From: Pseudomonas sp. p1(2021b)
Lineage (GTDB): Bacteria; Pseudomonadota; Gammaproteobacteria; Pseudomonadales; Pseudomonadaceae
DNA: 64,000 bases
Direction: 5' to 3'
Assembly: GCF_020151015.1 (NCBI RefSeq)
Contig: NZ_CP083746.1
Coordinates: 941,001-1,005,000 of the forward strand
Shown here: positions 60,065 to 61,306 of the stretch, one piece after another
Position numbering within the stretch: position 1 is the stretch's first letter
Layout of the letters: the number at the start of each line of letters is the position of its first letter
Position numbers and translations under genes: made by a program
Notes under the pieces: model-generated
Databases searched by the model: none
Told to the model about the DNA's origin: nothing
Seen by the model: the letters and a program-made list of their open reading frames with translations, nothing else

Positions 60065-60090
60065 GGGGCTGCTTTGCAGCCCTGTGGGAG
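60065..60090. repeat. Left half of REP split by the IS110 element
   Basis: GGGGCTGCTTTGCAGCCC then TGTGGGAG is the beginning of a REP. The second half, CGGGCTTGTCCCGCGATAGG, continues at 61263 on the other side of the insertion. Joining them restores the core TGTGGGAGCGGGCTTG. Confidence 0.85.
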
Positions 60091-60093
60091 ATT

Positions 60094-61056
60094 CTATGGT
60101 TGTGGGCAAGCATTTTTAGCTGTTCTGGTGACGTATTCGCCCTGACTCTTCAATAGGGCGAATGCGACTCTGGCGAGCTTCCTGGCCAAGATCACCAGGG
60201 CCTCGGTAGTAGCCTTACCTTTGCTCCTGTGGTGTGCATACACCTCTTTCCAGGCCACTGATCGACTAGCCGACATTGCCGCATTGTGCAGAAGGCGTCG
60301 TATCTCAGAGCAGCCCCGCTTGGTGAGCCGCCGACGGCCGGTTTTTTGCCCGGAGTCAGAGATTTGCAAGTCCATGCCCAAGAAAGCGATGAATGAATCA
60401 CCATTCTTGAAGTCCCCCCGGATAAACGCTGTCACCAACCCCACAGCGGTCAAAAATCCGATGCCTTCTATCTTTTGGCAGCGGGCGACCTGCTCGCTTA
60501 ATCCGGCTTCGCGCACCAACTCCTTGAGCTTTTTCTGAAGCAGTACATCGAGTTTCTCCATGTTCTTGGCAAAGGATTTGAACACGGTCTCAAGGCTTCT
60601 CTCATTGGACCAGCTTTGCGTCAAGGCGGTGCGTGCCGAGACCAGCGAGGCGCGGCGACGCAGAAGGCTCTGGAGCTTGCCGTAGACGGCTGGAGGTGGG
60701 CCCCAGGGACGTAGTCCACTGCCTTCGCGGGAAAGATAGCGAGAGAGTAGATAAGCGTCAGAGGCGTCCGTCTTCACCCGACCACCGACGCTCTTTCGAT
60801 AGTTACTGAGCTGGAAGCCATCGACCACGTAGACTGCAAAGCCTTTTTCATAAGCCATCTCCACCAGGTCGAGATGGTAGGTATTCGTTGCTTCGACGCA
60901 GATAGCGGTATTGGCGGGTTGTTGTCCCAGCCATTTTTTGATTTCGGGTTTGGTATTTTTCAGCGAGGACTGTTCATCACGGTCTTCGAAATGGACAACC
61001 AATTCGACTTTGGCCACATCCACACCAATGATGAATTGGCTTACCTGCATTGCCAT
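60094..61056 (-). CDS. IS110-family transposase
   Basis: The 320-aa recombinase has the N-terminal DEDD RuvC-like domain (IIGVDVAK, CVEAT, TDASDAYLLSRYLSRE) and the C-terminal transposase-20 domain with IEGIGFLTAVGLVTAF and GRRRLTKRGCSEIRR. The ATG at 61056 follows GGGAG with 8 bases. The stop lies only a few bases from the element end, as is usual. It needs a bridge RNA (see 61057-61262). Confidence 0.92.
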   Translation of the reverse strand: MAMQVSQFIIGVDVAKVELVVHFEDRDEQSSLKNTKPEIKKWLGQQPANTAICVEATNTYHLDLVEMAYEKGFAVYVVDGFQLSNYRKSVGGRVKTDASDAYLLSRYLSREGSGLRPWGPPPAVYGKLQSLLRRRASLVSARTALTQSWSNERSLETVFKSFAKNMEKLDVLLQKKLKELVREAGLSEQVARCQKIEGIGFLTAVGLVTAFIRGDFKNGDSFIAFLGMDLQISDSGQKTGRRRLTKRGCSEIRRLLHNAAMSASRSVAWKEVYAHHRSKGKATTEALVILARKLARVAFALLKSQGEYVTRTAKNACPQP

Positions 61057-61262
61057 TGGCCACACTCCCACGTATGGTTTTTCTGCTTGGAGGGGTTTTC
61101 ACCAAGAGGCGCTGGCTTGCTTCTATCGTCGCTTGCAAACGATGCATTCTTTATCGGCGCTTTGGTGAAGGGGTGGGGCGATGTCTCCCACGGTCTGTAC
61201 TGCGGCTAACAGTCAGAATCGGCTTTTTCGTCCCACCACCCCTTCAAGTATCACCATACAAG
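61057..61262 (-). ncRNA. Predicted IS110 bridge RNA
   Basis: The 5' non-coding end folds into two stem-loops in the order known for bridge RNAs. The first is closed by GGGGTGG/CCACCCC and holds GTGGGAG (minus strand, 61185-61191). The second is closed by TTCACCAA/TTGGTGAA, plus GCGC/GCGC. GTGGGAG is complementary to CT plus CCCAC, the core and one side of the REP target. The second loop has AAAGAAT and GCAAG, near matches to the element ends (ATAGAAT, ACAAG). Confidence 0.55.
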
Positions 61263-61306
61263 CGGGCTTGTCCCGCGATAGGGGCGCGTAGCGGCCCCAT
61301 GCGCAC

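Follow-up and report, generated by a model that had tools for sequence, protein, structure and literature searches.

REP targeting by insertion sequences of Pseudomonas putida has been known since 2006, when it was reported for 7/7 copies each of ISPpu9 and ISPpu10 (PMC1525189). The guide-RNA principle was published in 2024: bridge RNAs were reported with covariation over 5,511 target pairs, and the legend of Extended Data Fig. 10c in the same paper lists ISPpu10 with predicted guides (PMC11208160). ISPa11, as well as re-aiming in nature, has been treated in the work on seekRNA (PMC11187229). Neither the principle nor the targeting of REPs by ISPpu9 and ISPpu10 is therefore new. A literature search on bridge RNA or IS110 with REP, P. 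putida, ISPpu9 and ISPpu10, conducted for the most part outside the subscription journals, found no paper on the element described here or on guide drift across Pseudomonas. What the element offers is a compact body of natural variation, 104 insertions across 50 Pseudomonas genomes carrying 20 distinct left guides, over which evolution appears to have re-aimed a programmable recombinase. From it one can read at which guide positions mismatches are tolerated in nature, and it displays a handshake-base pattern outside IS621.

From comparisons of sequence, we consider it very likely that the element in the window (the whole 64,000-nt stretch of DNA that was analysed) is an intact ISPpu10-type insertion sequence of the IS110 group, the left end of which encodes a bridge RNA that guides it to REPs. 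It lies on the minus strand at 60091–61260 plus AG cores and is one of four copies in the genome, each 1172 bp core to core. The core dinucleotide, CT on the minus strand, stands at 61261–61262 (left-end copy) and at 60089–60090 (right-end copy; AG on the plus strand). The tnp gene (60094–61056, minus strand) encodes a 320-aa DEDD recombinase; the ORF reaches back as far as a GTG at 61071, and because the alignment with the ISPpu10-named protein P0095 begins at MAM, 61056 is the likely start. The protein is identified as an IS110 recombinase by model NF033542 (178.9 bits; cut-off, 140), matches both PF01548 and PF02371, and is homologous by sequence to the recombinases of ISCro4 (9t56, E 3.3e-23) and IS621 (8wt6, E 1.8e-22). 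Residues D18, E60, D102, D105 and S240 align with the catalytic residues of IS621 (PMC11208158), as counted by hand in 325-aa numbering with a two-residue chain offset. The predicted combination of a DEDD/RuvC domain with a Tnp domain and a catalytic serine is that of the IS110 group. A model for TIGR-Tas RNA-guided endonucleases also matched the ORF (60094–61071, minus strand), weakly, at 25.1 bits and below its cut-off of 100.

The left end of the element, which is the right donor, is TGTATGGT (61251–61260, minus strand); the right end, or left donor, is the ACCATAGAAT region (60091–60102, minus strand), with the sub-terminal repeat ACCATA. Together the ends form a short 6-bp inverted repeat, ACCATA/TATGGT. 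One group of relatives has AACATA/TATGTT in its place, and others with TATGCT retain ACCATA. Placement among the IS1111 elements was considered and rejected, given an RNA upstream of tnp and a repeat of only 6 bp. Tblastn against plasmids returned 1129 records, all below 60% identity; a protein pattern scan of genome contigs gave 32 pattern matches, of which 0 were confirmed; and a right-end pattern matched in 2 of 12 draft genomes.

Each of the genome's four copies lies in a REP, as a comparison of their flanks, which the earlier note had proposed as a check, makes plain; joining the flanks restores an intact REP each time. The restored site is CAAGCCCG-CT-CCCACA at three copies and CAAGGCCG-CT-CCTACA at the fourth (L004). 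At the copy in the window, the left target of the REP, AAGCCCG, occupies 61263–61269 and the right target half, CCCAC, 60084–60088, both on the minus strand. The genome holds 197 occurrences of AAGCCCGCTCCCAC and 248 of AAGGCCGCTCCYAC; no AAAGCCGCTCCYAC site was found in it. The left-end motif, allowed up to three mismatches, occurs four times in the genome, at the four copies.

The earlier note had described the left end, 61057–61262, as non-coding and capable of folding into a target loop followed by a donor loop, and so it proved: this long region upstream of tnp carries a two-loop RNA, an arrangement of the IS110 group, as judged from the region itself and from pair counts. The bridge RNA core spans 163 nt (61086–61248, minus strand; covariance model R1, 185.5 bits, together with the pair counts). 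The minus-strand fold has a z-score of −3.06, and 1 of 200 shuffles folded as well. The outermost element is a closing helix, P1, in which CTTGAAGGGGT (61248–61238, the 5′ strand) pairs with ACCCCTCCAAG (61096–61086, the 3′ strand), 10 of 11 pairs being formed in this copy, all on the minus strand. The outer stem proposed previously, GGGGTGG/CCACCCC, captured part of the structure: its GGTGGG/CCCACC pairs stand, but the conserved outer pairing is P1. Within the second proposed stem, TTCACCAA/TTGGTGAA, the CACC/GGTG core is conserved.

Paired changes among relatives keep this fold, the covariation that had been suggested as a check. In an alignment of 47 sequences (45 distinct), 95.7% of cells are paired. 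Changes on both sides affect 10 pairs and 55 cells, compared with 3.6 and 13.2 in shuffles, none of 500 of which reached either value; when the partners were slid, such two-sided changes numbered no more than 4 pairs and 6 cells. Further standard pair types, at 19 versus 16.3, are weakly above the shuffles (23/500 reach the value). Of the pairs changed on both sides, three each belong to the closing helix and the target stem and two each to the target hairpin and the donor outer stem, which thus places both loops inside the closing helix; no such pair occurs in either of the inner donor helices in the same alignment. Because the alignment was fitted to a structure that we had written, these counts lean towards that structure. 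It was made from 46 of 52 distinct sequences, leaving out five cut by contig ends (L013, L015, L020, L084, L093) and L069. A first RNAalifold consensus, with 3 of 29 pairs changed on both sides, was set aside because MAFFT had failed to align the subgroups' outer stems correctly.

The covariance model, built from 6 sequences, found the RNA in 15 of the 115 relatives to which it was applied, the element's own genome among them, and in 1 of 45 genera. The non-coding region matched in 67 of 298 Pseudomonas genomes, in a scan that scored two candidates per genome and so does not count copies. No Rfam family matched the RNA. Two loci, L069 (G091) and L092 (G065), carry shortened RNAs that match the model over 90 and 107 bases, and their donor loop appears to have been deleted.

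Might such a structured region instead be a leader that controls translation of tnp, with the protein alone recognising the REP and any guide matches incidental? The tnp of ISPpu9 has a 244-nt structured 5′-UTR and the antisense RNA Asr9 (PMC8450116). Moreover, a promoter-like TTGCCA-17-TATGGT lies on the plus strand opposite tnp at 61050–61078 (one found, 0.5 expected by chance); by analogy with Asr9, it would yield an RNA antisense to the tnp leader. The leader and guide roles could coexist. The behaviour of the guides, to which we now turn, bears on whether a leader role could suffice.

The predicted left target guide, which the earlier note had been unable to place, is AAAGCCG (61220–61226, minus strand), with core-facing bases AT at 61218–61219. 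It comprises seven bases that end two before a hairpin, which starts with TCTGACT in most relatives, and it was recognised by its covariation with the left target. The guide–target table drew on loci having both the left-end and the hairpin motif, 106 insertions in 52 genomes; same-genome insertions with the same 30-nt left flank were merged, and left-end stubs and L092 were left out. One locus, L011 (G066), holds two tandem copies 1352 bp apart with the same left flank and was counted once. Dropping L094 (truncated) and L069 (internal deletion) left 104 insertions in 50 genomes, in which guide and left target agree at a mean per genome of 5.94 of 7 bases versus 4.85 when permuted (0/5000), in a permutation that treats these related genomes as independent. 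Counted by distinct guide (n = 20), the agreement is 5.70 versus 4.13 (0/20000). Only the guide register stands out, with a z-score of 9.8; five others lie between −1.6 and 0.5. A leader role does not predict that seven loop bases should track the left target, and do so in a single register only.

Taken singly, 46 insertions match at 7/7, 40 at 6, 11 at 5, 3 at 4 and 4 at 2. Three of the last four (in G005 and G128) fit at 6/7 if shifted by one base; the fourth, L068 (G186), is a non-REP site with an unrelated left target. L068 has CTCCCACATTTGGTAGCT on both flanks, which would fit either a left target outside the REPs accompanied by a matching right target or a copy that has been rearranged. 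The guide AAGCTCG is found at the target AAGCTCG in 16 of 19 rows and AGGCTCG at AGGCTCG in 9 of 14; AAGCCGG (1/1) and AGCCGCC (2/2) likewise face their own letters, and TAGTTCG faces AAGTTCG (2/2; 6/7 bases). The core-facing bases of the 20 distinct left guides are AT in 12, CA in 5 and CT in 3.

On the right side, the earlier reading of GTGGGAG in the first loop (61185–61191, minus strand) as the exact complement of CT plus CCCAC holds. When the 163-nt RNA was shuffled 5000 times with its dinucleotides preserved, 51 of the shuffles contained this 7-mer. It pairs at 7/7 with three of the resident sites and at 6/7 with the fourth. Guide and right target could both be read in 80 of 106 rows. 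In the 76 rows with GTGGGAG, the guide faces CCCAC 73 times, CCTAC twice and CTCAC once; GTAGGAG has CCTAC opposite in 2/2 rows, and GTGAGAG (G080) has a mismatched CCCAC in 2/2. A further genome with the GTAGGAG guide, G147, has its right ends on other contigs; for two of the three right-end matches in this genome the target was read, at a point when the guide had already been established, and each time it is CT-CCTAC. GTAGGAG thus accompanies CCTAC in G094 and in G147, two genomes with RNAs of different subgroups. By the left and right counts alike, the guides of the first loop covary with the target, as they do in the IS110 group. A second GTGGGAG, at 61065–61071, was rejected as a guide copy: among the sequences compared, only L001 and L010 carry it there, and it is probably the ribosome-binding region of tnp.

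The second loop contains the near matches to the joined ends that had been pointed out before: the putative left donor guide AAAGAAT (61146–61152) fits ATAGAAT at 6/7, and the putative right donor guide GCAAG (61116–61120) fits CTTGT at 4/5 plus one G-T, both on the minus strand. The donors are nearly invariant in the set. The base after the right donor guide, C at 61115, occupies the handshake position (for the concept, see PMC11208158), which was read in 95 of 106 rows. It is C in 88/88 rows (39 genomes) in which target base −1 is G. In the seven rows with C at −1 (four genomes), it is never C (0/7) but T in five and G in two; the G pairs with the target C, and the T does not. A leader role predicts neither this pattern nor the GTAGGAG/CCTAC pairing in two genomes, and we regard it as a very improbable account of the region. 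That related elements in related hosts with similar REPs produce the agreement by themselves is scarcely credible: relatives do have guides and targets in common (e.g., G011, G216 and G254), and the permutation takes genomes as independent, but shared descent by itself would not produce identical letters along a single diagonal (z −1.6 to 0.5 for the other registers) or across 20 distinct guides, nor would it put GTAGGAG with CCTAC in two RNA subgroups.

We therefore return to a bridge RNA that guides the element to REPs. The earlier note was right on this main point, that the element reads the REP through its RNA, which is supported by the covariation of the fold, by the four resident copies and by left and right guides that follow their targets across 50 genomes; the left guide and the closing helix it missed. 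Starting from what is observed directly (element ends, REP targets, fold covariation and guide–target covariation), one may envisage the following course. Excision would join the ends and bring a −35-like box of the right end to 17 bp from the −10-like TATGGT of the left end, and this putative junction promoter would switch the RNA on. The joined ends read TTGCCC-17-TATGGT, with 4/6 and 4/6 matches to consensus, a consensus match only; across 38 rows, of which one (L048) was misread, the first box scores 3–5/6, and the integrated left flank of copy L002 scores 1/6 for it. A transcript starting 6–8 bases past TATGGT would begin at about the closing helix. By analogy with IS621, the recombinase would then bind the bridge RNA. 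The first loop would read the REP, its left target through 61220–61226 and the core plus five right-target bases through 61185–61191; the second would read the element's own joined ends, and strands would be exchanged at CT, as in IS621.

The guide of the copy studied here fits the left targets of the four resident sites at only 5, 5, 5 and 6 of 7 bases. Given this fit and the lack of a AAAGCCGCTCCYAC site in the genome, the element seems to live here on tolerated mismatches. Two left-end junctions in G157 are 100% identical over 35 nt to its own left end and sit at AAAGCCG; together with the mismatch to the resident REPs, they suggest that the element came in from a host whose REPs are of another type, the G157 guide itself being absent from that assembly. 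It is quite possible, if short of probable, that point changes in the left guide, the right guide and the handshake base redirect ISPpu10-type elements in nature as these elements encounter the REP types found in different Pseudomonas hosts. Our copy would then be out of step with its host, with a guide that fits AAAGCCG-type REPs, as at G157, and two other REP classes colonised through tolerated mismatches.

Traces of left ends also occur by themselves. At 14 loci in 12 genomes (L095 and L097–L109), a REP half is followed by 20–36 nt resembling the left end and then by unrelated sequence; no right end was found in the stretches fetched (best, 10–12/17). Longer stubs measure 45 nt (L096) and 63 nt (L094), and the clustering may partly be an effect of detection. 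These solo ends may be compared with the A boxes that surround orphan copies of ssr9 in the case of ISPpu9. That element, of the IS110 group in P. putida KT2440, shares with ours the position in the REP, the AG repeat and a structured tnp 5′-UTR, but it carries the sRNAs Asr9 and Ssr9 as well as A and B boxes, and its RNA has been interpreted in terms of translational control (PMC8450116); we saw no counterpart of ssr9 in our element. ISPa11 of P. aeruginosa, in the IS1111 group, shares RNA-guided REP targeting, by seekRNA (PMC11187229). In IS1111 elements, however, the RNA lies downstream of tnp and the sub-terminal repeats are long, whereas here the RNA is upstream and the repeat is the 6-bp ACCATA/TATGGT.

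ISPpu10 of P. putida is like this element in its REP target, AG/CT duplication, IS110 recombinase and bridge RNA. By protein identity the two do not appear to be the same: of the proteins named ISPpu10, through which the comparison was made in place of the KT2440 sequence, P0095 is 62% identical to this recombinase and P0098 71% over 80% of the query. With IS621 of E. coli, our element has in common an RNA upstream of tnp, a CT core, the five catalytic residues (hand count) and the order of the loops, target first and donor second, the 5′ side of each reading the bottom strand and the 3′ side the top (PMC11208160). The IS621 RNA consists of a 5′ stem-loop followed by two stem-loops; in this RNA no 5′ stem-loop was seen, and P1 encloses both loops. 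A further contrast with IS621 is that the alignment gives a right target guide of 7 nt and a left guide whose core-facing bases are mostly other than CT.
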